Assembly (NCBI RefSeq): GCF_009806575.1
Contig: NZ_CP047095.1
Coordinates: forward strand, 2,794,001 to 2,858,000
Direction of reading: 5' to 3'
Length of the DNA: 64,000 bases
DNA from: Rossellomorea marisflavi
Lineage (GTDB): Bacteria; Bacillota; Bacilli; Bacillales; Bacillaceae_B
Positions 7,550 to 20,922 of this stretch are shown here, piece by piece (within the stretch, counting starts at the first letter, position 1; each line of letters opens with the position of its first letter). The position numbers were made by a program, and so were the translations under genes. The notes beneath the pieces are model-generated. The model made no database searches and was not told the DNA's origin. It saw nothing but the letters and a program-made list of their open reading frames with translations.

Positions 7550-8605
7550 TCATACTCCCTGCATCATTTGGAACAGGGGCATCATGATTGAAAAGTAAAT
7601 GGCCATGATGAATAAGCCGACAAAACTGAAGATGACTGGCTGGATGTATTTAAGGAGGGCACCGCTCCTTTCTTCGAGTTCCACGAAGCACATATCCCCG
7701 TAGAGCTGCAATTCTTCCGGCAGCCGTCCGTTCGTTTGCCCATGGTGGATGATATAGGCGACCTCCGACTGAAAAAAAGGGATGGCACCTGCACACTCAT
7801 GGAGAGACATACCCGACTTCAAGCCCTGTATGAGCTCGCCGGATACATATTGAAGGGTCGGGCGGAAGGTTTGTTGTTCGATGATTCTGAGGGATTCGGT
7901 GATGGACACACCATTGCTTAGTAAAAACCCGAGTTCCCTTGCAAAGAAGTGGGTGTGTGCCAGTTTGAAGAAGCGGGATAGGAAAGGAATCCTGCTCGTG
8001 TGGATGGAAATGGTGACCGGGGAGATCCGGTGCCGGAAAAAGAAAAGAATGACCCCAGCTGAGAGAAGTACAGCAAGGATTCCCGCGAGCAGGAGGGGGA
8101 CGGCTTTTACGAACGAGAGTAAAAGCTGCACGCCAGTGGAAGGTTCATAGCCCATGGAGCTGTAGAGGGTTTCAAATTTCGGAAAAAGCACATTCCGGAG
8201 GAGGACCATCATCATTCCGGCGATGATGATGAGCATCAAGGGATACTGGATGACCCGCTTGAGCCTCTCTTGATTTTTCTGCTTCTGCAGGAGGTAATCC
8301 CCTGCACCCATGAGGGTTGCTCCCATCTGACCGTGGAACTCGGCAAAATAGATCTGGGCGCTCACATGGGTGGGGAGTGAGAGTTCTTTTGTGATGACCT
8401 TGGAAACCTGCACGCCTTCCTGCAGGGAATGGAGGATCCGGGTCTTCAAGACGGTCGCCTCCGGATGATCGGGTATGAGAAGGAAGTCCACTGCCTCACT
8501 GAACGTATATCCCTTCTCGAGGAGGGAACCCATACGCTTCAGGAACTTCCCCTGCTCATCCCTTTTCTTCATGTATCCATTTCCGATACTCAGATTCTGG
8601 AACAT
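7550..8605 (-). CDS. comGB: Competence pilus platform protein ComGB
   Basis: A 351-residue T2SSF/PilC-type polytopic membrane platform of the competence pilus. It has two repeated T2SSF domains, each with a cytoplasmic helical part, and three hydrophobic segments (LMLIIIAGMMMVLL, VPLLLAGILAVLLSAGVIL, and the C-terminal IFSFVGLFIMAIYF). The ATG at 8605 has AAGGGGGTGG nine bases upstream. The start overlaps the end of comGA by 50 bases. The reading frame is intact. Confidence 0.95.
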   Translation of the reverse strand: MFQNLSIGNGYMKKRDEQGKFLKRMGSLLEKGYTFSEAVDFLLIPDHPEATVLKTRILHSLQEGVQVSKVITKELSLPTHVSAQIYFAEFHGQMGATLMGAGDYLLQKQKNQERLKRVIQYPLMLIIIAGMMMVLLRNVLFPKFETLYSSMGYEPSTGVQLLLSFVKAVPLLLAGILAVLLSAGVILFFFRHRISPVTISIHTSRIPFLSRFFKLAHTHFFARELGFLLSNGVSITESLRIIEQQTFRPTLQYVSGELIQGLKSGMSLHECAGAIPFFQSEVAYIIHHGQTNGRLPEELQLYGDMCFVELEERSGALLKYIQPVIFSFVGLFIMAIYFSIMMPLFQMMQGV

Positions 8606-9191
8606 ATCCGAGTGCCACCCCCTTCCGGATGAGCTGCTTCAGCGTCAGGTATTGATGGTCGACCTTTTCCCCTTTTGCTTCCATCAGTACATTCTTCAGC
8701 TCTTTGCCCGTCAGGATCTCGAAAACCGTAGCCCGGTTGGTCCTCTTCCCTTCAGCGAGGCATTCCCCGAAGCAATCATTCCCGCAGACCGGGCATTTCA
8801 ATCGCAGCAGCCTCTGGGCAGAAACCGCCAAAATGGTCTGTTCGATATCATGCCATTTGATTCCGAGCTCCATGAGCCGGTAGATGGCCCCCTTCGCATC
8901 CCGCGTATGGACAGATGAGAGGACGAGATGTCCGGTGAGGGCTGCCCTGACGGCAATTTCAGCGGTTTCTTTATCCCGGATCTCCCCGACCATGATGATA
9001 TCCGGATCATGGCGAAGAATGGCTTTAAGACCGGTCGAATACGTGATACCTGCCTTTTCATTCACCTGGATCTGGACCATCTCATCGTGGGCCTTCTCAA
9101 CAGGATCTTCCAGGGTGATGACGTTGCGGTTAAGGGAAACGGCACAATGGTGGACAAGGGAGTAAAGGGTTGTCGTCTTCCCGCTTCCCGT
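8556..9191 (-). pseudogene. comGA: comGA, 3' fragment (split by integrative element)
   Basis: This is the C-terminal 60 percent of the competence pilus ATPase ComGA. Reading leftward from 9191 the frame opens with T-GSGKTTTLYSLV (second half of Walker A), then TLEDPVEKAHDEM (Asp box), EIRDKETAEIAVRAALTGH (Walker B) and LSSVHTRDAKG (His box), and ends KWIHEEKG. It has no start codon of its own at the junction; the first internal ATG is at 9080. Joined to 19350-19789 with one copy of the 2-bp core it gives 357 codons in frame, close to the 356-residue B. subtilis protein. While the element is integrated no intact ATPase can be made. Confidence 0.95.
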
Positions 9192-9207
9192 TAGTATAGT
9201 ACTTGGG
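9190..9207. other. Left attachment site of the element (core plus arm)
   Basis: The core dinucleotide is GT on the plus strand (AC on the minus) at 9190-9191. It is followed by a 6-base spacer and the arm AGTACTTGGG at 9198-9207. The arm is the exact reverse complement of the one at 19334-19343, at the same distance from its core. Left of the core is comGA sequence, right of it the AT-rich element. Confidence 0.88.
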
Positions 9208-9220
9208 GATGACCTTTTAG

Positions 9221-9262
9221 GAAATAAAAAAAGACTTTAAGCAGAAGTGCCTAAAGTCTTTA
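9221..9262 (-). terminator. Intrinsic terminator at the left end of the element
   Basis: AAAGACTTTA and TAAAGTCTTT form a 10-bp stem with an 11-base loop; on the leftward transcript it is followed by a U-rich run. It overlaps the last codons of the 40-residue gene at 9237-9359 and separates element transcription from the comGA 3' fragment, so comGB-GG get little read-through from the element. Confidence 0.75.
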
Positions 9263-9359
9263 ATATCCGTGCTGTATTTAATAAAGTGTCATGTGATGGG
9301 TCATTCAAAACCTCAACAATGATTTTTATATTCTTCTTTTTATTCAATACATTCCCCAT
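9237..9359 (-). CDS. Small protein of 40 residues, unknown
   Basis: A 40-codon frame reading MGNVLNKKKNIKIIVEVLND and ending in GTSA. Support comes from an AGGAGGT site (9371-9377) before an ATG at 9359 or an in-frame TTG at 9365, the terminator at its end, and a 38-bp element motif (9392-9429) placed upstream like those before two other element genes. It is rich in lysine and isoleucine with no recognised domain. The last gene at the element end, small and basic, would suit a regulator or a recombination directionality factor, but nothing shows this directly. Confidence 0.5.
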   Translation of the reverse strand: MGNVLNKKKNIKIIVEVLNDPSHDTLLNTARILKTLGTSA

Positions 9360-9391
9360 TTTCAATTAGTACCTCCTAGATTGTTCTGTTT

Positions 9392-9429
9392 CAAAGAGGT
9401 ACTTGCAATTTAAATACCAATTGGGACAT
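9392..9429 (-). promoter_or_regulatory. 38-bp element motif, copy 1
   Basis: On the minus strand: ATGTCC, 16 bases, TGCAAGT, 4 bases, CTTTG. The same pattern with identical spacing occurs at 15686-15723 and 17663-17700, each time 30-65 bases upstream of a leftward start codon. If ATGTCC and TGCAAGT act as -35 and -10 regions, transcription would begin near CTTTG, about 35 bases before the small gene at 9237-9359. Confidence 0.65.
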
Positions 9430-9973
9430 TGAGGTATTACAAGGAGTGACTAAATCAACAGAGTTCCATCATAATGAGGAAAAAAAGAAAAGTTTCCAGC
9501 ATGGTATATAACATCAAAATCCACAATTATACTGATCAGATACATCCAAAGATTCTACTTCGCAAAATGTTTGATATATGATTATCTAGAACCATCAAGA
9601 ATCTAAAATGTGGTATGAGTGAATACGTTAGTAAAATTAAGCAGGGGAGTTAAGAAGATACTTGAAAAGCAAGGTGTAACAAACGTCCCGAAAAACTTTA
9701 AACTTCCGCATACTTTTCATTTCGGACAACTATAATTAAATGGTAGAAAACTTACTAATGAGAATTGGGCTAGATTAACTGACTAGAACTGTTATGAAAC
9801 AACTTACGTGTAAATAATTATTACAAAAAAAGAAATAGCCAAGATCATTGGTTAATGCCCATGATCTTAGATATTTCCTTGAAGAGGTAGAATTAATTGA
9901 TTACTGCTTATTATAGTTATTTATAAAAGATTACCTTCTAAACGTCTTTTTACTTACTAGACATATATTATGA
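9430..9973. other. Gene-poor 540-bp stretch of the element, possible decayed coding sequence
   Basis: No intact gene is seen. On the plus strand one frame from about 9620 to 9800 reads like protein between stop codons: LEKQGVTNVPKNFKLPH, then after a stop LNGRKLTNENWARLTD, then another stop. This suggests a decayed gene, but I recognise no family. An inverted repeat AAGATCAT...ATGATCTT lies near 9840-9870, without a clear U run. Confidence 0.35.
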
Positions 9974-10339
9974 CTAAATATCTAATAAATTAGCTAGCTG
10001 TGAAAACCACTGGAAAACAAGGGATAAAAAATAAATCAACATCAATATGGCCAAAATTTGGACTAGTACATATAATATACCTCCAAAAGAATTATCAAAA
10101 AAAGAATATAAAAATTTTTTAAGCAACTTGGTAATTCCGAAAAATATCCACGCGTACATTATTCCAACTAAGGTACTTATAATTAATACCTCTATCGCAG
10201 CTTGAGTAATTAGTGTAGTGAATGCTGCAACCGCCGAAAACCCAAAAATAGTAAATAAACTACTAATTACACCTAACTTAGTAGAGGCCGGCACTTTCGG
10301 ATCTTTTAACTCAGATATTATTTTTTTCAGAAAACCCAT
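9974..10339 (-). CDS. Small membrane protein, third gene of the GHKL-HNH module
   Basis: About 121 residues starting MGFLKKIISELKDPKVP. Three strongly hydrophobic segments are visible (LGVISSLFTIFGFSAVAAF; ALIEVLI-type helix IEVLIISTLVGIMYAWIFF; ILYVLVQILAILMLIYFLSL). The start at 10339 is chosen for AAAGAGG about 10 bases upstream. It begins 25 bases after the HNH nuclease stop on the same strand, so it is probably the last gene of a three-gene operon. No family is recognised. In defence operons such proteins may act as membrane effectors, but that is speculation here. Confidence 0.7.
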   Translation of the reverse strand: MGFLKKIISELKDPKVPASTKLGVISSLFTIFGFSAVAAFTTLITQAAIEVLIISTLVGIMYAWIFFGITKLLKKFLYSFFDNSFGGILYVLVQILAILMLIYFLSLVFQWFSQLANLLDI

Positions 10340-10364
10340 GGATAACATTCCTCTTTCCAACTAT

Positions 10365-11444
10365 TTATTCATACATCTTTATTAAACTTTCGTACGTTAC
10401 AGCAATTCCAAAATCATTTAGTTCATCTGCTTTATTTTTGTATAATTCTCTAATCATTAGTTCACGTTCAGTTTTGCTTGCGTGATGAATCTGCCTATGA
10501 CAATTTGGACAAATAGATACAATATTTCCTGGAACATCTAGACTCCAGATAAAATCACTCTGGAACCTAATAGGAATAAGATGGTGTGCTTCTACAAAAT
10601 TCTCCCCTGTTACAGCAGATTTGAAAGTTTTATGGTTTTGATCATATTCACATGAATAATTTGAATTTAGTAATGCTTCTTTAGCAATTGCAGCATCTCT
10701 TTTCCATTTACTCCGTTCACCTGTTTGTTCTTTTAAAGGTACAGGTTGGGGTACATATGGGGTATGGGTAGGAGATACTAATTGCACGTCAGATTGAAAC
10801 TGAGTATCGTCGATCGCTTCAATATTAAGTAAATAATCAATAAAATGTTCCGTATTTCTACGACCCATAGTAATTTTCAGCCTGCGATAAACCCTTATCA
10901 TTTTCTTCAGATCATCAAATAACTCGTCATCATCAGGAAGACTTTTTAATGAATAATACTTTCCGCATATATGTGCCGCCATATAGTTTTGGGCATTATC
11001 TGTAGTGGACCTTAAATCAATTTCGTTATTCGGAAAATCTTCTTTGGAGTAATCTAAAGAACTTCTTAATATACTTGATACTTCTTTCATTTTGCTTCTT
11101 GGCTTATTTCCTTTATATTTATTCTTTATATATGTAGTGCCTTGATTTAATGATAAGTAAACGCCAGTCATGTCATTTTTAAATAGATATACAATGTAAA
11201 ACCCTTTCGTTGCTGAATTAGTAATAGTACGGTCCATAATACTTACCCAAGGGGTTTCTGTCCATTTACCCTGCCCAACAGAACCCTGAACTTTGAATAG
11301 GAATTCAATACTGCGGGATTTGTGCTTAATTAATTCTGGGAATTCTCTTGTTATGTATTTTGCCATTTCATTTTCAGTAGGTTTGAATGGTAAAGATATT
11401 TGGTCTAAGTAATTAGTTAATACTTTCTCAAAAGCTTTCCTCAT
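10365..11444 (-). CDS. McrB-N (DUF3578) plus HNH endonuclease
   Basis: A 359-residue two-domain nuclease. The first 180 residues match the McrB N-terminal DUF3578 type, with GSVGQGKWTETPWVSIMD, then TNSATKGFYIVYLF and YLSLNQGTT; relatives of this domain bind modified DNA in type IV restriction. A linker follows, then a C-terminal HNH domain: CEYDQNHKTF, VEAHHLIPI (catalytic HH), NIVSICPNCHRQIHH (N, CxxC, H). ATG 11444 is set by an excellent AGGAGGG. It follows the GHKL ATPase after 52 bases holding a terminator-like hairpin. Likely role: cleavage of foreign or modified DNA, with the ATPase as partner. Confidence 0.85.
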   Translation of the reverse strand: MRKAFEKVLTNYLDQISLPFKPTENEMAKYITREFPELIKHKSRSIEFLFKVQGSVGQGKWTETPWVSIMDRTITNSATKGFYIVYLFKNDMTGVYLSLNQGTTYIKNKYKGNKPRSKMKEVSSILRSSLDYSKEDFPNNEIDLRSTTDNAQNYMAAHICGKYYSLKSLPDDDELFDDLKKMIRVYRRLKITMGRRNTEHFIDYLLNIEAIDDTQFQSDVQLVSPTHTPYVPQPVPLKEQTGERSKWKRDAAIAKEALLNSNYSCEYDQNHKTFKSAVTGENFVEAHHLIPIRFQSDFIWSLDVPGNIVSICPNCHRQIHHASKTERELMIRELYKNKADELNDFGIAVTYESLIKMYE

Positions 11445-11465
11445 AATATCCCTCCTGGAACAACT

Positions 11466-11492
11466 AAAAAGGGTGGAACTTTCCCACCCTTT
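11466..11492 (-). terminator. Terminator-like hairpin between the ATPase and nuclease genes
   Basis: On the leftward strand AAAGGGTGG, a 7-base loop and CCACCCTTT are followed by TTTTAG. It has the shape of an intrinsic terminator but lies inside the module, 20-odd bases before the nuclease ribosome binding site. It would let only a fraction of transcripts reach the nuclease and membrane protein, keeping the putative toxic part low. Confidence 0.7.
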
Positions 11493-11496
11493 CAAA

Positions 11497-13359
11497 TTAC
11501 AATTCTGCACTAAACTTTTTATTCAGGACCGTCTTCAATTCAATAATGGGTAAGAAATTCGTGTTTCTTCCAAGACCTGCTACTTCATGCGTCACTCCAT
11601 AGTATGCGTTTTCTGACTGATCTACTTCTTTCAAAACAATGCCTTCTGTTTCAACAAACTCATTGACCTTATCATATTCTACACTCCAACAAACTAAAAT
11701 ATCTATATCTTGTAATCGTTTTTTCACCTCTTTTAGATCTCTAAAAATGCCTCTTAGAAATGTTTTATATTCAATTACAATCTCTCGATCCATTTCTGCT
11801 TGACGATTTTTTACACTTTCAGATATTCCTAAGGGATCATGTGGAAGTAAAATTTCTTGTGGGAAATCAGTTTTATAATCATATAGGCCATCATAGACGT
11901 CAAATCCTGAAATTACTTTTGGAAAATAACCTGGTAAAACCCCTCTACTTATCAACTCGGTAAAGAGAGTAATTACTTCTTGTTCATTATCGATAGGGAA
12001 ATATTTATGGACCAAATCAATTTCAAGTAGTTGTTTGTTAGCTAGTTTATTTCTTAATTCTCTCTTAGCATCATATCCATCAGTATTTATCCGCGTATCT
12101 ACACCAAGCACATATTCTCTGTAGTCAATAAAGTTCTTGTCCTTTAGTAGCTTTTTAACTACAGCAACTATTTGTGCTGCCCGATATTCAGTAATACCTT
12201 TCCTACCGCTATCTAATTCATTCTTGACTTCTTTATTTTCATCAATCACATCTACAATTACAGTAAAAGGAAGATAACTACCGTGACTTAGAGGATCTAA
12301 ACATATACCAGTTGGTAACCCATCGATCGCTAACCATATTCCATTTTTTACATGTAAGTTCTCATATTGGTCATCATTAGGAAACTTGTCATTGTATGTT
12401 TTCAGGTGGGCTTTACTTGTTTCAGCAATATAAATATTTACTTTTAATGGATTAATTAAACCAATGTTAACATCAGTGTATTTTCCGTCGATTAGCATTG
12501 CTTTTCTAGCCACTCGTTTTCCTGATTGGTCTAAGTGTTGTGTCGCTTTAATGAAATCATCATAATCATTTATGTCATAAAAGTTACCGGATGGATATAT
12601 TTTTTTGATTATTTCTCTTGTTGATAAATGTCCTGCTTTAATCGGAACTACCTGATCATTAACTTCTACATGAATATTAAATAAATTTGTGTCTTCATTA
12701 AATATGCTGTCAACTAAACCAACAGCAGATTTCGTTCGTAAAATGTATTCAAGCATTTCAATTGAGTTAGCATGATAAAATGCAGAGTTTATGTTCTTTT
12801 CTAGTGTTTCGTTAGGGAACTTTTTGGGAAAGCGAAGAGTTATCTTAGTTCCACATTCTTCCAGAGTCTCCTCTTCGTTTTGTCCGTTCTTTTCCTCTTC
12901 TGAAAGCGGGAGGTCGGCACCTTCAAATACGAATTTATATAGGTCAAAATAGGTTCTCGATGCTTTTTTTCCTTTATAAACACTTTCAATTCTAATAAAT
13001 TCTGTTTGAAAAGACACAAAGGTAAAACCATACCCCATAAAACCGTATTTGCCTCTACCTTCTTTTCTTTTTAACGACTCACCCATGACTAGGATACTTG
13101 AGATATCTGAGGGTTTAATACCTATACCATTATCTTCAATAAATATTTCTCGTTCTTCTGTGTGGAATGAAAGCTTTATTTCTCCATTATTAATGTCTGC
13201 ATACCCGAACTTATCAATGATTGCATCAACAGCATTCTGTAACAATTCTGTATAAAGATCCCAAGATGATCGGTAACTCATAATAGTTCTTCTGACATTC
13301 TCTCTAATTTGTTCAATTGCCAATGAAGAAAACTTACTCCCCAATTCTCCAACATTCAT
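11497..13359 (-). CDS. GHKL/Hsp90-type ATPase, partner of the HNH nuclease
   Basis: About 620 residues. The N-terminal Bergerat-fold ATPase has the N box ELLQNAVDAIID (near residue 40), the G1 box EDNGIGIKPSD (near 75) and the G2 box EGRGKYGFMGYGFTFV (near 100), as in Hsp90, MutL and Morc proteins. The remaining 450 residues match nothing I recognise. ATG 13359 follows GGGAGGG eight bases upstream. A -10-like TATACT lies near 13400. It heads an operon with the McrB-N/HNH nuclease and a membrane protein. I infer a sensor or clamp ATPase of a defence module; substrate and trigger are unknown. Confidence 0.85.
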   Translation of the reverse strand: MNVGELGSKFSSLAIEQIRENVRRTIMSYRSSWDLYTELLQNAVDAIIDKFGYADINNGEIKLSFHTEEREIFIEDNGIGIKPSDISSILVMGESLKRKEGRGKYGFMGYGFTFVSFQTEFIRIESVYKGKKASRTYFDLYKFVFEGADLPLSEEEKNGQNEEETLEECGTKITLRFPKKFPNETLEKNINSAFYHANSIEMLEYILRTKSAVGLVDSIFNEDTNLFNIHVEVNDQVVPIKAGHLSTREIIKKIYPSGNFYDINDYDDFIKATQHLDQSGKRVARKAMLIDGKYTDVNIGLINPLKVNIYIAETSKAHLKTYNDKFPNDDQYENLHVKNGIWLAIDGLPTGICLDPLSHGSYLPFTVIVDVIDENKEVKNELDSGRKGITEYRAAQIVAVVKKLLKDKNFIDYREYVLGVDTRINTDGYDAKRELRNKLANKQLLEIDLVHKYFPIDNEQEVITLFTELISRGVLPGYFPKVISGFDVYDGLYDYKTDFPQEILLPHDPLGISESVKNRQAEMDREIVIEYKTFLRGIFRDLKEVKKRLQDIDILVCWSVEYDKVNEFVETEGIVLKEVDQSENAYYGVTHEVAGLGRNTNFLPIIELKTVLNKKFSAEL

Positions 13360-13365
13360 AAACAA

Positions 13366-14300
13366 TTCCCTCCCATAATTTTCTTTCTACTAGTATATTT
13401 TAACTATAAAGGTTAGAAAAGGGAATAAAAAGATGAATTGGTATAAAGGTTTTTAAAAACTGCTACAAAAATTTTCAAAAGGTTGGTCTTGATATAAACA
13501 ACTCATATACTTGACCACCACAATCTAATAGTATAAAACAACACTAAAAGGTTTTTGACATAGTGCATAAATTTTGCAGACACCAGATTCCCCCCCACTT
13601 ATACCCCCATCCCCCTATGGTGGGGGGCATATCATATGTTTACAGTGTGATCTATTTTCAGGGATCTGTTACTCCAGTACATATCTTCTATTATTCTTAT
13701 CATTTTTTGGTACATTACCTTAATTATTCATCCCTTCTAATTTTCCATTCTTATGTTAACCTCATCTTTTGTTGTCGTTGTCTTTACCTTTACTGCAGAT
13801 GCTATTTGGTGGTGGTATCTCTTACTCTCCTCTGCATTGGAGTGCCCCTATACGCTGCTGTAATGGTCCTTTACACGCTTGTATAGTGTGCGGTAACTCA
13901 ATATGAGTATGTATCCCTCCCCCCTTTTAATCAGCATTTGTGTCGGATATTTCTAACAGCGTCGGTTTTTTACTACCACATCTTGTAGATCATTAAGTAG
14001 AAAAGCCTTCTGAAAATATGTATGGTACATCTAGGGATTCATATCGTGTCATTTATGTATGAGTAATTAGTCCACGGCGTATAGTCCTGATCTATTTATC
14101 TAAAGCCACTACTAATTCTTTAAGGAAGAAAAGTTTGAGTTTAAATCACAAAAATAATAATGGATTCAGGTTTAGATCAAGCTTAACTTTTGGTATTTTC
14201 GGAGGATTAAATACACTTATAATAAAAAGATGGAGTAGTCGTATTTGACTTACCGAGTGTATAAGTTATGAATCAAAACTTAACTTTCCCTTCTATAACT
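13366..14300. other. 935-bp intergenic stretch with a G/C-run hairpin
   Basis: Between the divergent ATPase and resolvase genes no convincing gene is seen; a plus-strand frame at 13563-13886 has composition and residues of non-coding DNA (runs of S, Y, V and H, no ribosome site). The notable part is 13591-13627, where CCCCCCAC and GTGGGGGG form a strong stem in an otherwise AT-rich area, with CCAT/ATGG as an alternative pairing inside. Its place in a divergent intergenic region would suit an origin or a regulatory site. Confidence 0.45.
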
Positions 14301-14381
14301 GTGTCATAACTTAATAGTATTGACACCATTTTTTTAATGCTGTATTATCAACTCACCAACAGGTGTCATAACTTAGTGTCA
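14301..14381 (+). promoter_or_regulatory. Resolvase promoter and res-like recombination sites
   Basis: GTGTCA...TGACAC is a 26-base dyad (14301-14326) with the size and symmetry of a resolvase crossover subsite. A partial second copy, GTGTCATAACTTAGTGTCA, lies at 14363-14381; the 13 bases GTGTCATAACTTA are identical in both. Between them is a near-consensus sigma-A promoter, TTGACA (14320-14325), 17 bases, TATTAT (14343-14348). The promoter is flanked by both sites, so the resolvase would repress itself, as Tn3-type resolvases do. Confidence 0.7.
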
Positions 14382-14409
14382 AAAATTGATTTAGAAAGGA
14401 CTAATACAT

Positions 14410-14970
14410 ATGAAATATGGATATGCAAGAGTAAGTACTTTGTCGCAAGAATTAGAGATACAGCTACTTGCACTAGAAAATGAAAACTGTGATCTAATCT
14501 TCTCAGAGAAATACACTGGAACTAGATCAGACAGACCCCAATTCAATGAATTACTTAATTCACTTAAAGACGGTGATACTTTGGTTGTTACCAAACTCGA
14601 CAGACTAGCAAGAAATACTTTAGAAGGTATCCAGATAGTTAGGGACTTATTTTCCAAGGGTATAAGAGTTCACGTTCTAAATGTTGGTCTGTTAGAAGAT
14701 ACTACAATGGGACGTTTCTTTCTAACAACATTGTTAGCAGTTGCTGAAATGGAAAGGAATATGATTGTAGAACGAACTCAGGAAGGTAAGGCGATAGCTA
14801 GAAAACGTCAAGACTTCAGGGAAGGTAGACCTAAGGTTTATGGGAAGAAGCAAATTGAACATGCTTTAGGACTACTAGAAAGCCGTTCATATAAGCAAGT
14901 AGAAGAGATCACAGGTATAAGTAAAAGTACGCTTATTAGGGCAAAGAATAAGCTAAAGACGTCACATTAA
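14410..14970 (+). CDS. Small serine recombinase (resolvase/invertase family)
   Basis: A 186-residue serine recombinase of Tn3-resolvase/Hin type. The catalytic serine is in YARVS (residue 9). The conserved arginines are in [10 protein letters not shown] and TKLDRLARN (near 65), and the long E helix is [19 protein letters not shown] (near 115). The C-terminal part holds a helix-turn-helix ([20 protein letters not shown]). AGAAAGGA lies nine bases before the ATG. It is the only plus-strand gene of the element. A role in resolving multimers or element cointegrates at the upstream res-like sites is likely. Confidence 0.93.
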
Positions 14971-15107
14971 AGGCCATCGCAGCTTTACCTGCCATTGTGC
15001 AGACAACTTTTTATACAGGTGATTAACCTATAGCCGACTTGCTTTTGTGCAAAAAAATATTCTCAGAGGGCACAAGTATGCACAGTGTTAAAGGGATAAT
15101 TCACAAG

Positions 15108-15141
15108 AAAAAGCTGGAAGAATGCATACCTCCAGCTTCTG
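15108..15141 (-). terminator. Intrinsic terminator after the small HTH gene
   Basis: AAGCTGGAGG-type stem: AGCTGGA and TCCAGCT pair around a 13-base loop, with a U-rich tract on the leftward strand. It lies a few bases past the stop codon of the 15145-15375 gene. Confidence 0.7.
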
Positions 15142-15144
15142 ATC

Positions 15145-15375
15145 CTAATTAAATATCTCAATCACTTTGTTAAGATTGTTTCTCTTATAGTCAGTGAAAG
15201 CGTAGTAACAATCTTTTCTACTTTTTCCATTAACAATATTCTTTATGGTTGTTCTAGATACATTGTATCTTTTTTCTATTTCAAAGGGTTGTAACCCCTT
15301 AACCATATATAGATACAGAATTTCATAAACTTGCCTATCGGTTAATTTAATGTTATAAAACCCATGATCATTCAT
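15145..15375 (-). CDS. Small helix-turn-helix protein
   Basis: About 76 residues from MNDHGFYNIKLTDRQVYEIL. A helix-turn-helix is likely in LQPFEIEKRYNVSRTTIKNI, the pattern of a resolvase-like or sigma-4-like HTH. I chose the start at 15375 because CAGGAG lies nine bases upstream; a longer frame to 15417 has no ribosome site. It follows the 67-residue gene at 15430 on the same strand. A small DNA-binding regulator of the element is the natural reading and it is a candidate to bind the 38-bp motif, but this is inference. Confidence 0.65.
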   Translation of the reverse strand: MNDHGFYNIKLTDRQVYEILYLYMVKGLQPFEIEKRYNVSRTTIKNIVNGKSRKDCYYAFTDYKRNNLNKVIEIFN

Positions 15376-15429
15376 TAGCAACATCTCCTGAATTTTAGTA
15401 TCATTCTCAATTTTCACATTTTATTAATC

Positions 15430-15633
15430 TTATTCAGCAAATGGTTCTAGGTTTATAACCAACTGCCTTACGATTCCTTTTTGATCTGTTTTACCCATCA
15501 CAGAAAACCACCCTCCATCACTTTCTGTTTCTATATGCAGTCCTAAAATTTCGCAGTCCCCTAATCCTATAGTTCCTGTATCTGTAGCAAACTCTCCTAA
15601 TTTGATGATGCCGTTTTTTACATTTGTTTTCAT
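15430..15633 (-). CDS. Small acidic protein of 67 residues, unknown
   Basis: Starts MKTNVKNGIIKLGEFATDTG after a GTGGAGGAA site. It is an acidic, glycine-rich protein with alternating hydrophobic residues (IGLGDCEILGLHIETESDGG), suggesting a small beta-rich fold; no known family. The 38-bp element motif (copy 2) lies 53 bases upstream of its ATG, so it probably heads a short transcript with the small HTH gene that follows. Confidence 0.6.
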   Translation of the reverse strand: MKTNVKNGIIKLGEFATDTGTIGLGDCEILGLHIETESDGGWFSVMGKTDQKGIVRQLVINLEPFAE

Positions 15634-15685
15634 TTTTTATTCCTCCACTTTAATTTTTAAAGGGCTGTGCATGTATCAACCCTCT

Positions 15686-15723
15686 CAAAGGAGTACTTGC
15701 AATTTCATTTCTAACTAGGACAT
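15686..15723 (-). promoter_or_regulatory. 38-bp element motif, copy 2
   Basis: On the minus strand: ATGTCC, 16 bases, TGCAAGT, 4 bases, CTTTG, the same fixed spacing as copies 1 and 3. Outside the motif the flanks differ from copy 1, apart from a few bases, so conservation is confined to the motif. It lies 53 bases upstream of the 67-residue gene. Confidence 0.65.
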
Positions 15724-15747
15724 TGAAATAAAATTAAATTTACTACA

Positions 15748-15778
15748 TAAAAAAAGCCAGGCATTTAAACCTGACTTG
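15748..15778 (-). terminator. Intrinsic terminator after the 15820 gene
   Basis: GTCAGG and CCTGGC pair across a short AT-rich loop, followed on the leftward strand by a run of seven U. It lies about 40 bases past the stop codon at 15820. Confidence 0.6.
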
Positions 15779-15819
15779 AAAGTTCATTTTATGATTATAC
15801 CTACCATACTAGATCACAT

Positions 15820-16067
15820 TTACAGTTTTGCTTTGTGTTGAAACTCATCAAATGATTGTACAAATGACTTATTTTTCATTTTCCCCACTTCTAATTCCCT
15901 TTTTAACTCTTCAACTATTGCAGGAAGATCAATGTAATTCCTCATGAATTTCACAGAGTGTCTAATCGTTTCAGGTTGACTGGGTTTCTTATATGAACGA
16001 CTATCTAACTCAAACATAAGTGTTTTTAAAATCTTGTATTCTTCTTCATTTAAGGTAACTTAGACAT
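15820..16067 (-). pseudogene. Small gene with a frameshift at its start, unknown function
   Basis: An open frame continues upstream of the internal ATG at 16017 as VTLNEEEYKILKTL and is closed by TAA at 16062-16060. Reading ATG TCT from 16067 and restoring one base near 16060 would give MSKVTLNEEEYKILKTLMFE, a normal-looking start of an 82-84 residue protein rich in charged helices. As it stands the frame breaks after three codons. Either the gene is broken or translation starts at 16017, where I see no good ribosome site. No family is recognised. Confidence 0.5.
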
Positions 16068-16187
16068 TCTGAACTCTATTCACATTTAATTCCCATTATT
16101 AAAATGATTAAGACTCGGCTGGGCCTCGTGCTTGGTCTAACGACCTTCGCTAACATTTAGTAATAGAATAACTACTGGTGAATATCC

Positions 16188-16237
16188 ATAATAACATGGA
16201 GTGTGTTAGCTTTAGCTATCACAGGTAATGTTATTAT
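16188..16237. other. Nested 50-base hairpin next to the helicase gene
   Basis: ATAATAACAT (16188-16197) and ATGTTATTAT (16228-16237) are perfect 10-bp arms. Inside them GTGTTAGCT and AGCTATCAC form a second stem with one mismatch around a 2-base loop. No U run follows on either strand, so it is not a simple terminator. Position between the helicase 3' end and the small gene suggests an origin or an RNA structure. The 285-base gap around it (16068-16352) contains no gene I can support. Confidence 0.5.
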
Positions 16238-16352
16238 GCGTTCTAAGCAATCGTTCACCTATACTTTTTATATGTTTTCTTATAAGGAAATAGCTTGAAA
16301 ACCTATATATATCAAGGGATACAGCATTTGTTTATACCTTTTTAAAAATAGA

Positions 16353-17633
16353 TCAACTTTCATTAAGTACGCTTTGGTTATTCAAATACTTTTCTAGTAA
16401 TGTTCGCATTCTATTGCTGGGGATATATATGTTAATGGGCTTACCTTTTCTTACTCTACTTCTAAATACCCATTGTAGTAACTCTGATAGTGCAAATAAA
16501 TCCTCGTCTACTTTTACACCTTTACTATTGAAGAATTGTTTTGTAATTGGATTCATGTAGCGATTCGCAAAGTAGATACATGTTGATTTATCTGCATAAT
16601 CATTAGTTGCCCTTGCAGTAACCTCCACAAACTGCTTCTTTAAATTTTTGGGACAAATATTCTTTTCAAAGGCTAAAAATGTTGTCCACATCACCTCATT
16701 GCTTGGTACTTTCATTTTGTTGTAATAAAAGTTAAATCCATGATCCTTTAAAAGTTTCTGCTGCATCTTGTTCCCTGTTAGCTTAGTTAATTGTGATTTA
16801 CTAAAAGCAGAAGTCTTTTCTCCAATTTTGTTTATATCAAATCTATCTGTAGGTTGAGAATAATATATCTGTATCAAATTTTTCAAATGTACTCTATTCT
16901 CTTGTTGCAAAGGTATATAAGGAACTAGTTCATAACTATCGTTAATAAATGATACGGCTTGAAAGTTGTAATCTAAATTAAACAAGTCATAGTAGTAACG
17001 TTGAATCTGTCCATTAAACATATATGTTAGTACGTATACCTCCTCAAATCCTTTAAAAGCTGATACAGGAAACATCCAGTACATTGCTATACCATCGTAA
17101 ACCATTAAATTATTCGAATTTGCAAGATTACGGATATGTTCAAAATTACCATCTTTATATTCTTTATCGTTCCATTGTACAAAGCCTTTGTTGTCAATTG
17201 AAATTGCTGGATCACCTGTTTTGGTTCGTGCTGTAAGAAGCAGTTGTAAATCATTCTTAGATATATTAACTTGATCAATAACATTCATGACTTCATCTAA
17301 TATAAGTGTGTAGCCCTGCATTTCAATTAGTTCAATTAGTTCATTATCCATTCGCTGAAACAATGCATGAGTTGAGACAATATCCTCACGCTTATAAATA
17401 AGTTCTTTCAAGCTTTCTAGCTTTGTACCTCCTTTCTTATTTTCAGGCTGTGCAAACTTTCTTACCGAGGATGATAGTACTCGTTCTACCTCATTTAGGA
17501 AAGGAGTAATATATATGAATTTTTTATTATTTGGTGATCTATTCATATGTTGGATAGCCCAGCTTGTCTTTCCACTTCCCATAATTGAATCAATTATTGT
17601 AATCTTTTTTTCTGTTGGATTTTTACATAACAT
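16353..17633 (-). CDS. Phage-type SF2 helicase / origin-binding-like ATPase
   Basis: A 426-residue P-loop helicase. Walker A SIMGSGKTSWAIQHM lies near residue 20 and the DEAD-like motif II TLILDEVMNVID near 120. Motif I is followed by YITPFLNEVERV (motif Ia), and DIVSTHALFQRM resembles motif Ic. The C-terminal lobe includes YADKSTCIYFANRYMNP. Similar small helicases occur in phages and satellites of Firmicutes, for replication. The start is the ATG at 17633, nine bases after AAAGGA; an in-frame ATG at 17654 lacks a ribosome site. Copy 3 of the 38-bp motif lies 30 bases upstream. Confidence 0.75.
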   Translation of the reverse strand: MLCKNPTEKKITIIDSIMGSGKTSWAIQHMNRSPNNKKFIYITPFLNEVERVLSSSVRKFAQPENKKGGTKLESLKELIYKREDIVSTHALFQRMDNELIELIEMQGYTLILDEVMNVIDQVNISKNDLQLLLTARTKTGDPAISIDNKGFVQWNDKEYKDGNFEHIRNLANSNNLMVYDGIAMYWMFPVSAFKGFEEVYVLTYMFNGQIQRYYYDLFNLDYNFQAVSFINDSYELVPYIPLQQENRVHLKNLIQIYYSQPTDRFDINKIGEKTSAFSKSQLTKLTGNKMQQKLLKDHGFNFYYNKMKVPSNEVMWTTFLAFEKNICPKNLKKQFVEVTARATNDYADKSTCIYFANRYMNPITKQFFNSKGVKVDEDLFALSELLQWVFRSRVRKGKPINIYIPSNRMRTLLEKYLNNQSVLNES

Positions 17634-17662
17634 ATTCCATCTTCCTTTCTTCATAGCCCGTA

Positions 17663-17700
17663 CAAAGTAAGACTTGCAGAAAAAAATTCAAAAAGGACAT
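17663..17700 (-). promoter_or_regulatory. 38-bp element motif, copy 3
   Basis: On the minus strand: ATGTCC, 16 bases, TGCAAGT, 4 bases, CTTTG, spacing identical to the other two copies. The helicase ATG at 17633 begins 30 bases past the end of the motif, the right distance for a promoter with a short leader. Confidence 0.65.
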
Positions 17701-17811
17701 ATGATTGGAATCAAAAACAACAGAACATTCCCCCCCTAGCCCGTTTACCTTTCCTACATTCTCTTACAAATAGTAGTATTTTTAAAAAGTAAAAAGGAAT
17801 AATCTAAACGA

Positions 17812-19296
17812 TTACTCCTCCTTGAACCTTATTATAATTTTTGGTGATTCCTCACCCTTCCCATAAGACCAAAAAATTCCGCTAATTAAACCATGTAATA
17901 GACGATTTATCTTTTCGTCTAAGAATCCTTCTCCATCGAGAAAATCCCATTTCTCCATAAGGCTGTCTACAGTTTCTATCTGTTCCTGAAGATCATTGAT
18001 TCTCACTGTCTTATCTTCACTATCTACCCGAAATATTTCTTCTTCGATTTTCAATATTTCTTCCAACCTTGTAGCTTTTCGTTCCCGATATGTAACAATG
18101 TCTATTTCATCTTCCTCAAAAAGTATATTGATTTTTTCCAAAGCCTTCTCAGACCTCTTTAGTCGGCTTATTAGTTTGTCTTTTATAAATTGAGTGTTGT
18201 CTTCATGTTTACCTTCTTTAAGGGTTTCTAGTGCCTTTAAAATGCTTTCTTTATGTTGTAGAACTTCTCTCTTAATTTCCACTAGTACAGGATTATAATA
18301 AAAACCTCTGTTCCCGCACTTACAGTGCTTAATGTAAACCTTATCAAGACGTTTAAGATAGTTGCACCCTTGTGACTTTCCACAATTAGCACAATAAATT
18401 AGATTACTTGTAGGGTATATTCTGTTCTTACTTCTGGGTGCTTTAAAAGAATATTCGTTAACGATCTTATTAGCCGATTCCCAAGTTTTCTCTTCTATTA
18501 TTGCTGGGTGGGCATTATGAACAATAATCCATTCCTCTTTAGGTCTAATTGTATTAGCATGTTTACCAGTGGTTTTGTTACTAATTATTGTGCCTCTATA
18601 CGCCTCATTGTTTATTATTCTTAGTATGCTGTTATAGTGAAAATCGTTCCCTTCTCTTGTCTTAATACCCATACTTTTTAACTGCTTAAGCACATCAGGT
18701 ATAGTAGTACCTTTATCAACCTCAGAAAAGATAAACTGAATGTCTTTTGCACGTTCATTCGGAACAAGTTTCTTTGTCTTAGTGTCCTTTTTGTATCCTA
18801 GCGGGGCAATTCCATTTGTCCAATGACCCTGCTTTTGTGCGTATTCCTTTCCTCTTCTCATACGCTTTAAGATTTGTTTATATTCTCCACTAGCAATTAA
18901 GTTCGTAATCCCTAACAGCAAACTGTCATCATCTTTAGTAAGATCAAATATTCTATGTGGTGTAATGATATATGTCTCGGTTTGATACAATATCCTTTTA
19001 ATTTCACTTGCGTCGAATTCGTTTCTTGAAAGCCTATCAATGTCCATGACTACAACAGCATCATAATAATCTTGTTGAACCCGTTCAAGTAGTTTAACGA
19101 ACTCTTTCCTTTTTAAAATGGTGCTACTTGAAGCCACTTCCTCAAATAACTCATATGACCAGTGATTTTCATTAACTAAGTCAATTAAAGTTTGACGATG
19201 ATTAGCAAGTACTTGTTCAATTCCTTGATTTTCTTCATCTCGACTTAACCTTAAATACACAGCAACATGCTTTACTTTCTCGTTGTTAAATAGCAA
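17812..19296 (-). CDS. Large serine recombinase (site-specific integrase)
   Basis: About 494 residues with the order typical of large serine integrases. The N-terminal catalytic domain has VAVYLRLSRDEEN (nucleophile S near residue 16), and VMDIDRLSRNE (near 90) carries conserved arginine. The recombinase domain has GIAPLGYKKD and NEAYRGTII. A zinc ribbon has CANCGKSQGC and HCKCG. A coiled coil of E/K-rich repeats (330-430) follows. The start is TTG 19296, six bases after AAGGTG. It lies at the element edge beside the right attachment site and should carry out insertion and, with a partner factor, excision at comGA. Confidence 0.95.
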   Translation of the reverse strand: MLFNNEKVKHVAVYLRLSRDEENQGIEQVLANHRQTLIDLVNENHWSYELFEEVASSSTILKRKEFVKLLERVQQDYYDAVVVMDIDRLSRNEFDASEIKRILYQTETYIITPHRIFDLTKDDDSLLLGITNLIASGEYKQILKRMRRGKEYAQKQGHWTNGIAPLGYKKDTKTKKLVPNERAKDIQFIFSEVDKGTTIPDVLKQLKSMGIKTREGNDFHYNSILRIINNEAYRGTIISNKTTGKHANTIRPKEEWIIVHNAHPAIIEEKTWESANKIVNEYSFKAPRSKNRIYPTSNLIYCANCGKSQGCNYLKRLDKVYIKHCKCGNRGFYYNPVLVEIKREVLQHKESILKALETLKEGKHEDNTQFIKDKLISRLKRSEKALEKINILFEEDEIDIVTYRERKATRLEEILKIEEEIFRVDSEDKTVRINDLQEQIETVDSLMEKWDFLDGEGFLDEKINRLLHGLISGIFWSYGKGEESPKIIIRFKEE

Positions 19297-19317
19297 TATA
19301 ATCACCTTCCCAAGGTA

Positions 19318-19346
19318 ATTATACAGTGTACTACCCAAGTACTCAA
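19318..19346 (-). promoter_or_regulatory. Integrase promoter overlapping the attachment arm
   Basis: On the minus strand TTGAGT (19346-19341), 17 bases, TATAAT (19323-19318). The -10 is consensus and the -35 has four of six matches. Transcription would start about 15 bases before the integrase TTG. The -35 lies within the attachment-site spacer and arm (19334-19349), so integrase bound there would block its own promoter. All of it is element sequence, so it persists in the excised circle. Confidence 0.75.
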
Positions 19347-19351
19347 CTAGT
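19334..19351. other. Right attachment site of the element (core plus arm)
   Basis: The core GT (plus strand) is at 19350-19351, preceded by the 6-base spacer CAACTA and the arm CCCAAGTACT at 19334-19343. It mirrors the left site exactly (arm 10, spacer 6, core 2). Right of the core is the comGA 5' part, so this is the comGA/element hybrid junction. Confidence 0.88.
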
Positions 19352-19789
19352 CGGTCCGGTAAACAAGATCAGACCGTGGGAGTGCATGAGCAGGGCGACG
19401 AGTTTTTTGGCTGAGGACGGATAGAGGGACATATGCTCGATGGGGATCTGATAGCGTTCGGGCAGGATCCGGATGACGAGGCTTTCTTTGAGATGGGTGG
19501 TCGGAAGGGTGGATACCCGCAGTGCCAGGGGGATCCGTGAGATGAAATGGGTGTAGGAGCCGCTTTGGGGCTTTCGCTTCTCTGCGATATCCATGGAGGA
19601 CATGAACTTCAGATGGGCGATGAGGCGCTCGGCCTGGTCTTCGTCGATCGTCTTGAACGGGACGAGTGTTCCGAGCTTTCTGAATTGAATGAGGTAATCG
19701 TGCTTGCGAGGGACGAGATGGACATCTGTTGCATGACTGCGAAATGCTTCCGAAATCATCCGTTCGGAGAAGGTTTCGACAGAGTGGAT
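19343..19789 (-). pseudogene. comGA: comGA, 5' fragment (split by integrative element)
   Basis: The N-terminal 146 codons of ComGA: ATDVHLVPRKHDYLIQF, then IAHLKFMSSMDIAEKRKPQSG, STLPTTHLKESLVIRILPE and HSHGLILFTGPT, where the Walker A motif breaks off. The element adds S and a stop. The first ATG in frame is only at 19759. Sequence like the family's true N terminus extends further up (HSVETFSERMISEAF) to a TGA at 19798-19796, and an AAAGGTGG lies at 19803-19810. The only initiation candidates there are ATC codons at 19792 or 19789; the latter gives the family length of 357 residues after excision. Confidence 0.92.
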
Positions 19790-19895
19790 GATGAATCACA
19801 CCACCTTTCAGTAGTCTTGAAGATATATATACGACAAAAAACCTGAAAATCCTGCAAAGCTCACTATTTTTTTCGTTTACTCTGTTTTACCAGAA
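19790..19895 (-). promoter_or_regulatory. Upstream region of the comG operon
   Basis: The leftward leader contains the ribosome site AAAGGTGG (19803-19810), a -10-like TATATAT (about 19824-19830) and A/T tracts. I looked for the ComK box (AAAA, 5 bases, TTTT, paired) and found A and T runs but no exact match, so ComK control is expected from the family rather than shown. Any transcript from here runs through the 5' fragment of comGA straight into the integrase gene. Confidence 0.45.
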
Positions 19896-19896
19896 A

Positions 19897-19920
19897 GGCC
19901 CCGTCCAATTGGACGGGGCC
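19897..19920 (-). terminator. Terminator of the Liv/acyl operon
   Basis: GGCCCCGTCC-AATT-GGACGGGGCC-type perfect stem directly after the last permease gene and before the comG promoter region. The U tract on the leftward strand is short (CUUUCUGG), but the 11-bp GC-rich stem is strong. Confidence 0.7.
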
Positions 19921-19926
19921 GATGGG

Positions 19927-20922
19927 TCAGGCTGCTTTCTTCACTTCGTCGTTCTTTCTCTCTTTCTTCTTTTTCCCCTTCAGGGACTTCACTACACCTG
20001 CCAATCCTTTCGGGAAGCCCAAGAGGACGACGATATAGAGGAAGCCGAGGAAGATCGTCCAGCGCTCGAAGATCGGGTAGACCGATGCCAGTTCCGATAG
20101 GTAGTGACGCAGGAACTCGATGATGCCGGCCCCGATGATGGGACCGATCAGCGTCCCGAGACCGCCGATCATGGTCATGAGCAGGGCATCGAGGGTCACT
20201 TCGATGGAGAATACGCTCACATTGATGAACCGTAGCGAAACCGCATACAGGGCCCCGCTCAATGCGGCCACCATGCCGGACGTGACACTCGCCATGAGCT
20301 TGTAATGAAGCGTCTTGAACCCAAGCGCTTCCGTCCTGTACTCATTCTGGGAAATGGCCTTCAGGACCTTCCCCGTCGACGAGGAGGTGAATAACTTCAA
20401 CAGTATGAAGATGGATGCCATGACGATCAAGGTTACATAATAGAAGCTCATGCGATCTTTGAATACATCCGGCACAGAGAATGTAAAGCCGTCCCCTCCC
20501 ATGGTCAGCCCCCTCCACTTCTCGGCAAGAACCAAGAACAGCTGAGAAACGGCCAAGGTGAGCATGGCGTAGAAGTGACTCTTTAGGCGAAGGGACAGTA
20601 GTCCGATCACATAGCTCACCACGGCTGAAAGGGCGATGCCGATCAGGAGCCCGATGATGAAGTTCCCCAGTGTGGCCTCATGATTATTGAACATGAGGGC
20701 CACGCTGTAGGCACCCAGGCCGAAGAACATGCAGTGACCGAAGGAAACGATCCCTGTATACCCAAGAAGGATATCGAAACTCATGGCGAAGATGGCGAAA
20801 ATGAAGATCTGCGTGAACATGATGAGCATGCTCCTTGAATCATTGACAAAAGGAAACAGCATCAAGGCCACCAAGCCTGCCATCCCCCCGTAAAGAGGGA
20901 TGCGATTCGTCATGCTTTTCAT
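19927..20922 (-). CDS. livM: Liv-type ABC transporter permease (LivM family)
   Basis: A 331-residue polytopic permease of the hydrophobic amino acid transporter (HAAT) family. About nine or ten membrane segments are visible, and the LivM signature GYTGIVSFGHCMFFGLGAY lies near residue 52. The cytoplasmic coupling region includes ISQNEYRTEALGF, followed by ALSGALYA, and GGLGTLIGPIIGAGIIE. It ends with a K/E-rich tail. It overlaps livH by four bases and is the last gene of the operon. HAAT systems import branched-chain amino acids but also other carboxylates; neighbours here favour an acid substrate. Confidence 0.92.
   Translation of the reverse strand: MKSMTNRIPLYGGMAGLVALMLFPFVNDSRSMLIMFTQIFIFAIFAMSFDILLGYTGIVSFGHCMFFGLGAYSVALMFNNHEATLGNFIIGLLIGIALSAVVSYVIGLLSLRLKSHFYAMLTLAVSQLFLVLAEKWRGLTMGGDGFTFSVPDVFKDRMSFYYVTLIVMASIFILLKLFTSSSTGKVLKAISQNEYRTEALGFKTLHYKLMASVTSGMVAALSGALYAVSLRFINVSVFSIEVTLDALLMTMIGGLGTLIGPIIGAGIIEFLRHYLSELASVYPIFERWTIFLGFLYIVVLLGFPKGLAGVVKSLKGKKKKERKNDEVKKAA

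Follow-up and report, generated by a model that had tools for sequence, protein, structure and literature searches.

The competence gene comGA of Rossellomorea marisflavi (RefSeq assembly GCF_009806575.1) is interrupted by a 10,160-bp element in the 64,000-nucleotide stretch of contig NZ_CP047095.1 analyzed here (positions 2,794,001 to 2,858,000 of the forward strand; hereafter the window, to which all plain coordinates refer). According to passages of PMC7029219, ComGA is the ATPase of the competence pilus. Judged by its ends, its relatives, and its gene content, the element is very probably a compact, non-phage mobile island with likely anti-phage genes, which would integrate via its own large serine integrase at an AC dinucleotide in the Walker A codons of comGA and profit from blocking transformation; the lesion would be reversible over evolution and not a dedicated developmental switch.

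Insertion in the Walker A codons of comGA

The minus-strand gene is interrupted among the codons that specify the Walker A motif GPTGSGKT. Its 5' part (19352..19792, minus strand) comprises codons 1 to 138 from the ATG at 19759, together with a possible upstream nonstandard start, AT[ATC], at 19787-19792. Its 3' part (8556..9189, minus strand) runs from the rest of the Walker A motif onward and is followed by comGB to comGG. As a first-pass annotation of the window had proposed, the element can be removed in frame: five equivalent joins (+9188/19348 to +9192/19352) reopen the comGA frame, each dropping exactly 10,160 bp, and the frame without the island encodes an intact GPTGSGKT. Common to both island ends is a 2-bp core, AC (19350-19351 and 9190-9191). 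Read on the minus strand, the core at the attachment site attL (19350..19351) is preceded by host GGACCG and followed by element TAGTTGAG, and the core at attR (9190..9191) is preceded by element CTATACTA and followed by host GGGAAGCGG. The joined frame scores 355.8 bits against the NCBIfam model NF041000 (ATPase_ComGA; cut-off 300). G+C content is 33.1% in the island, 53.7% in the comGA pieces, and 49 to 52% in the 5-kb flanks.

The length first quoted for the repaired gene (1,074 bases, 357 codons) starts at ATC 19787-19789 on the minus strand; from ATG 19759, the joined gene has 347 codons. The longer frame may nevertheless be real, since the AT[ATC] start is conserved in the genus. In a survey of window positions 19787-19792 and of the regions upstream of comGA at loci L021-L047, comGA apparently starts with ATA, ATT, or ATC, 11 codons 5' of the ATG, after GAAAGG[TC]GGTG. 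This start was seen at 17 of the 18 loci where the region was found by pattern (L040 differs; at 12 of 30 loci the region was not found).

Two close relatives in the genus, G034 and G027, have an empty site with intact comGA. The joined ComGA is 98.8% identical to either protein over 347 amino acids, which bears out the expectation that the repaired frame is ComGA-like. The joined flanks, aligned end to end (1,841 columns), are 95.7% identical to G034 and 94.9% to G027; G034 is identical to the joined site over 24 bases around the core, and neither genome has an integrase match at E 0.001. The absence of decay in the other comG genes also held up, with comGB to comGG full-length, open, and 92.5 to 98.9% identical to G034. 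Because the frame is repaired, empty-site relatives exist, and the insertion point is shared with five other hosts (see below), a split of comGA by chance is excluded. That the element is a dead relic or an assembly artifact has a negligible probability: the island lies within the contiguous chromosome of a two-contig assembly rated 100% complete, its integrase is open, there is no decay, and the same junction type is repeated in independent assemblies.

The recombination module and its relatives

Next to attL, the island encodes a large serine integrase (17812..19296, minus strand; TTG start after GGAAGG, read from the sequence) with Resolvase and Recombinase domains (PF00239, 6.7e-22; PF07508, 1.1e-19), a match to the phrog_95 integrase family (3.2e-77), and a long C-terminal part. 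It is preceded by a promoter-like stretch, TTGAGT-17-TATAAT (19318..19346, minus strand), whose −35 box falls inside the attachment-site (att) arm because the stretch starts three bases past the core. The 17-bp spacer is kept in six of the seven family members examined, the exception being the broken copy in G136. Set side by side, the two island ends form an attP dyad matching at 15 of 20 positions, which none of 50,000 random pairs reached. Over five family elements, the dyads match at 11 to 16 of 20 positions, and the weaker ones were matched by 147 to 387 of 50,000 random pairs.

Just inside attR lies the gene for a conserved 40-amino-acid protein (9237..9359, minus strand), with a terminator-like hairpin (9230..9261, minus strand) after the open reading frame (ORF) and before attR. 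From its position, this protein is a candidate recombination directionality factor. Relatives occupy the same place in the Bacillus tianshenii, Terribacillus, CGMCC 1.16541, and L056 elements, and the G214 element has a weak relative ∼1 kb from attR. The rate of nonsynonymous differences (pN) was below that of synonymous differences (pS) in all 10 pairs compared, only barely so in the R. marisflavi-L056 pair; phage records contained no match to this ORF. A similar stretch, seen by eye (GAAATTGCAAGTAC or TAAATTGCAAGTAC, then CTCTTTGA or TCCTTTGA), lies 5' of both this ORF and a 67-amino-acid ORF of the island (9380-9440 and 15680-15740), and a like stretch is present 5' of the L056 copy; it is a possible shared regulatory element.

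Integrase searches revealed eight distinct family loci, R. marisflavi included (L053, which is G145, and L051, which is G274, were each counted once; L055, at 27%, does not belong to the integrase family and was left out). Six of the eight lie at the comGA Walker A codons, in R. marisflavi, B. tianshenii, Terribacillus halophilus, Bacillus sp. CGMCC 1.16541, G214, and G136, the integrases at the other five sites being 54 to 76% identical to that of R. marisflavi. From core to core, the elements measure 10.2 kb in R. marisflavi, 11.3 kb in B. tianshenii, 7.4 kb in T. halophilus, 13.0 kb in CGMCC 1.16541, and 17.7 kb in G214; the G136 element is represented by its 5' side only and was not delimited. 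Cargo in the four delimited relatives looks defence-like by sequence: a type II restriction-modification system of a C5 methylase and an NgoFVII-like endonuclease, with Vsr (B. tianshenii); a type III methylase and restriction proteins (CGMCC 1.16541); AbiC-like, Aga nuclease, and HNH proteins (G214); and a protein of the Ltp lipoprotein family (Terribacillus), a family linked to superinfection exclusion. In phage and plasmid collections, only integrase relatives below 60% identity were found. The family appears to be rare, since besides R. marisflavi it was found in 0 of 397 genomes of a class-wide sample (E 1e-90) and in 4 of 396 other genomes of an order-wide sample (E 1e-100). The L056 island, which retains its att arms, contains a DNA methylase-like gene, recognized by eye, and adjoins a transposase-like fragment; the host sequence beside it does not resemble comGA.

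comGA as a repeated target

Across the genus (36 genomes, one per species, with comGA traced by the joined protein), comGA is in two pieces in 14 genomes, at three sites. Five are split at Walker A (G000, the R. marisflavi host, with G005, G007, G012, and G028), eight near codon 227 (G001, G002, G010, G013, G016, G021, G026, and G033), and one near codon 204 (G018). The two pieces lie on separate contigs in G002, G016, and G018; G008 and G011, with one TGA inside an otherwise whole match, were counted as uninterrupted. All 14 interrupted genomes have an integrase gene or part of one within ∼2 kb of the comGA 5' piece. These recombinases belong to at least four lineages in a tree built by a quick method and containing long branches, from which the truncated G002 integrase was left out. 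One is the integrase family of the R. marisflavi island. A second serine lineage sits at the same Walker A codons in G005, G007, G012, G028, and the IMG/VR locus L085, and groups with the AP45 and phi105 integrases with full support. With two separate serine lineages located there, the Walker A codons were, by the integrase sequences, chosen at least twice independently. The site near codon 227 is occupied by serine integrases of one or two lineages, of which that of G033 groups with phage A403, and the site near codon 204 by a tyrosine recombinase in G018, IMG/VR L084, and G049 (outside the genus). Two IMG/VR loci contained comGA fragments, at sites used in the genus.

For comparison, an order-level sample of 299 evenly drawn genomes contained 287 from outside the genus, of which 14, picked by eye from the best E-values among the matches listed, were checked. 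comGA is split in at least 7 of the 287 (G145, G274, G214, G140, G196, G248, and G049), or in at least 9 if G199 and G258, whose comGA pieces end at contig ends, are included. The genus (14 of 36) thus differs from its surroundings with a Fisher test value of 2e-10, or 1e-9 with the larger count. Checked but uncounted were G163 and G077 (frameshift-like), G071 and G110 (near-whole single match), G176, G293, and G313 (partial match without a split), and G136 (intact copy).

This clustering could arise without any benefit from the target if integrases merely pick conserved, motif-coding DNA common to many hosts and the cell tolerates losing DNA uptake as a by-product. In comGA, the stretch coding for Walker A and that of codons ∼204-227 are indeed strongly conserved, and passages of PMC10083194 report that distantly related integrases often target one gene. 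Such a neutral landing site is nonetheless unlikely, though it retains some weight. The paralogue pilB, whose Walker A DNA in R. marisflavi matches attB at 36 of 46 positions, is a single open frame of 547 to 576 amino acids in each of the 34 genomes for which it was listed (of 36; not G002 and G019), leaving aside a second, shorter pilB-like copy (460 amino acids) in G035. Interruption of comGA (14/36) versus pilB (0/34) gave a Fisher test value of 2.7e-5. Moreover, comGA has drawn at least four recombinase lineages, and competence genes are enriched among integrase targets generally, according to the same passages of PMC10083194.

A comGA 5' piece that breaks off near codon 227 persists in three genomes, each with a second comGA copy 2 to 36 kb downstream (L072, G012:C1:2846500-2866400; L079 in G017; L080 and L039 in G019). 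DNA identity between the second copy and the 5' piece is 97.6% in G012, 93.7% in G017, and 90.0% in G019. Downstream of an attR-like end of the codon-227 phage type, G017 has a complete comGA with its own upstream region, and the second copy in G012 has in turn been struck at Walker A. Judged by sequence, the gene seems to have been recovered and lost repeatedly.

Constraint and age of the interruptions

R. marisflavi comGA differs from that of G034 at 42 synonymous and 4 nonsynonymous positions (pN/pS, 0.03), and R. marisflavi, G034, and G027 have two private ComGA amino acid changes each. Over the first 136 codons, among 20 comGA copies compared in pairs within set divergence limits, median pN/pS was 0.055 for intact pairs (n = 32), 0.072 for pairs with one interrupted member (n = 35), and 0.091 for pairs with both interrupted (n = 7); these pairs are not independent, and the slight rise with interruption may be genuine. 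The highest value among both-interrupted pairs was 0.23, in the close pair G013-G010. Since pN/pS is low in interrupted copies, the interruptions appear to be mostly young or regularly undone.

The first-pass annotation had suggested a reversible switch, or at least a very recent knockout. Its basis, a clean insertion without decay, stands; a recent or recurrently renewed knockout explains the same data without regulation. In a regulated switch, the island would be excised under competence-inducing conditions, comGA would work when needed, and the island would reinsert afterwards, as in the active lysogeny known for Listeria comK. We regard this as improbable for R. marisflavi, even though the att sites, the integrase, and the candidate directionality ORF look intact, the comGA halves show no decay, and the integrase promoter overlaps an att arm in six of seven family members, so that self-control is possible. 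Low pN/pS is predicted equally by recent insertion, and the interrupted pair G013-G010 has a raised ratio. The comGA 3' pieces of G028 and G033 each contain one TGA within the match, and in three genomes an old 5' piece followed by a second comGA indicates recovery by duplication or replacement, not by clean excision.

Gene content of the island

Besides the integrase and the 40-amino-acid protein, the minus strand encodes a 433-amino-acid protein of phrog_2467, a family of unknown function (16353..17654; weak sub-threshold helicase matches; a 38% identical relative in the G214 element), small ORFs of 65 (15820..16017) and 67 (15430..15633) amino acids, and a 90-amino-acid protein (15145..15417) with a weak sub-threshold UPF0122 helix-turn-helix match. 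These are followed by a 622-amino-acid GHKL/HATPase protein (11497..13365) with a weakly HSP90/sacsin-like N terminus, a protein with an MrcB_N domain and an HNH endonuclease-like domain (10365..11510; Pfam HNH just below the cut-off, with HNH-type matches in PHROG and PADLOC), and a 128-amino-acid protein with hydrophobic stretches seen by eye (9974..10360). On the plus strand, a small resolvase/invertase-type serine recombinase (14410..14970) has a 64% identical counterpart in the Terribacillus element; AAGTTATGACAC repeats upstream of it (14301..14381), found by eye, are a putative res site. No Rfam RNA was found within 8500-20000 at the gathering threshold.

Several known element classes were considered. 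The likeness to an A118-type competence-gene prophage drawn at first pass is apt for the clean serine-integrase insertion, the open integrase, and the paired att sites; it fails for prophage nature, as the PHROG scan of nine island ORFs returned no structural family, the matches being to recombinase and HNH-type families and to three of unknown function (15103, 6203, and 2467). With regard to a satellite of the phage-inducible chromosomal island type, packaged by a helper phage, the same scan gave no packaging-related match. A conjugative or mobilizable element is not supported, as the nine ORFs gave no relaxase or type IV secretion Pfam match, undescribed types being possible, and McrBC type IV restriction was rejected because MrcB_N is fused to HNH, with no AAA+ or McrC match.

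The HATPase and MrcB_N-HNH pair (10365-13365) recurs in G055 (78% and 59%; L086, G055:C3:133000-152000), where it adjoins dnd phosphorothioation genes (dndC, a DndA-like gene, and others by eye). The R. marisflavi host has dndA-E, dptF, and dptG elsewhere (L110, G000:C1:880000-899000). Among 150 genomes, HATPase occurs in 2 and dndC in 8; both HATPase carriers have dndC (p 0.0025; post hoc, n = 2), and six dndC genomes lack HATPase. The two proteins are candidates for restriction linked to phosphorothioation. PMC10853773 contains none of the words Hsp90, histidine kinase, MORC, MutL, or McrB.

Discussion

In the mechanism we favor, the integrase would insert the island at the AC dinucleotide of the comGA Walker A codons. 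The integrated island would abolish ComGA and sever comGB to comGG from the comG promoter, so that no DNA uptake would be expected; in B. subtilis genetics, loss of ComGA blocks DNA uptake. Outside comG, the one uptake gene checked, of the ComEC family, is present in the host. Excision by the integrase and a directionality factor, for which the 40-amino-acid ORF at attR is the candidate, would restore comGA exactly, and because the empty site could thereby regenerate intact, the lesion would be reversible over evolution rather than a developmental switch. Integration at comGA most likely pays the element, since a cell that is not transformable has no way to exchange the island for imported empty-site DNA by recombination, and the restriction-type cargo may help the host against other elements. 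A benefit to the element from blocked transformation has been argued for other competence genes in passages of PMC4774983.

Several observations weigh against this explanation. G136 has an intact comGA besides its struck piece; the integrase of the IMG/VR contig L056 lies outside comGA, with no comGA match in the 56-kb record; L054, a family remnant in Metabacillus iocasae, is not in comGA; and open pilB- and pilT-like genes in the R. marisflavi host might take over part of the role of ComGA. The PilB-like and PilT-like ATPase genes lie at G000:C1:3026214-3028318, and a PilB-like match is present in 34 of 36 genus members. As both ATPases are encoded, the host may make a second type IV pilus.

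Mobile elements in competence genes have been described before. The SpST71A prophage of Staphylococcus pseudintermedius (PMC7029219, in the passages covered) splits comGA of the comG operon, as the R. marisflavi island does, but it is a ∼44-kb prophage and divides the ORF into 509 and 479 bp, near codon 170 and not at Walker A. In Macrococcus, phi-MC1 likewise disrupts comG but is a prophage, according to passages of PMC6008420. The covered part of PMC4774983 describes prophages in comK of Listeria, in comYC, and in comFA and mobile elements in comM, which have a competence gene as attachment site in common with our island and differ in the gene used; in that part, comGA occurs once, in a reference title. 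A survey of large serine recombinases (PMC10083194) reports, in the passages covered, that distantly related recombinases share one target gene and that competence genes are strongly enriched; comG is absent from its main text, and defence cargo at comGA is not among these passages. In our tree, the A118 integrase falls in another part than the R. marisflavi integrase, on a long branch whose place is unsure. The best phage matches to the latter, at 29 to 34% among the matches listed, were SPbeta-type integrases, which lie in the same broad part of the tree; their phages exceed 120 kb, unlike the 10,160-bp island, and use another attachment site. In searches of the open-access literature, we found neither a family of non-phage islands that carry defence genes and are specific to the comGA Walker A codons nor a convergence of several recombinase lineages on comGA in one genus. 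Integrases that target competence genes, and a prophage within comGA, were already known; the comGA-keyed defence islands and the convergence look like a new variation on this theme.

A broader picture, which we offer as speculation and consider rather unlikely in full, is that comGA is contested throughout the genus: islands and prophages would repeatedly take its three sites, and hosts would regain the gene by excision, replacement, or a second copy. On this view, the defence islands would let the cell exchange DNA uptake, reversibly, for restriction-type immunity, and the att-arm integrase promoter and the 40-amino-acid protein would control excision.

The finding yields a serine integrase family with inferred attB/attP pairs and a natural system in which to test whether mobile elements disable transformation so as to escape curing. 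This system brings together a single gene with three attachment sites, no fewer than four recombinase lineages, numerous sister species whose site is empty, and both small islands and 40-kb prophages. The repeated strikes on comGA by related islands and unrelated phages point to a lasting conflict of mobile elements with bacterial DNA uptake.

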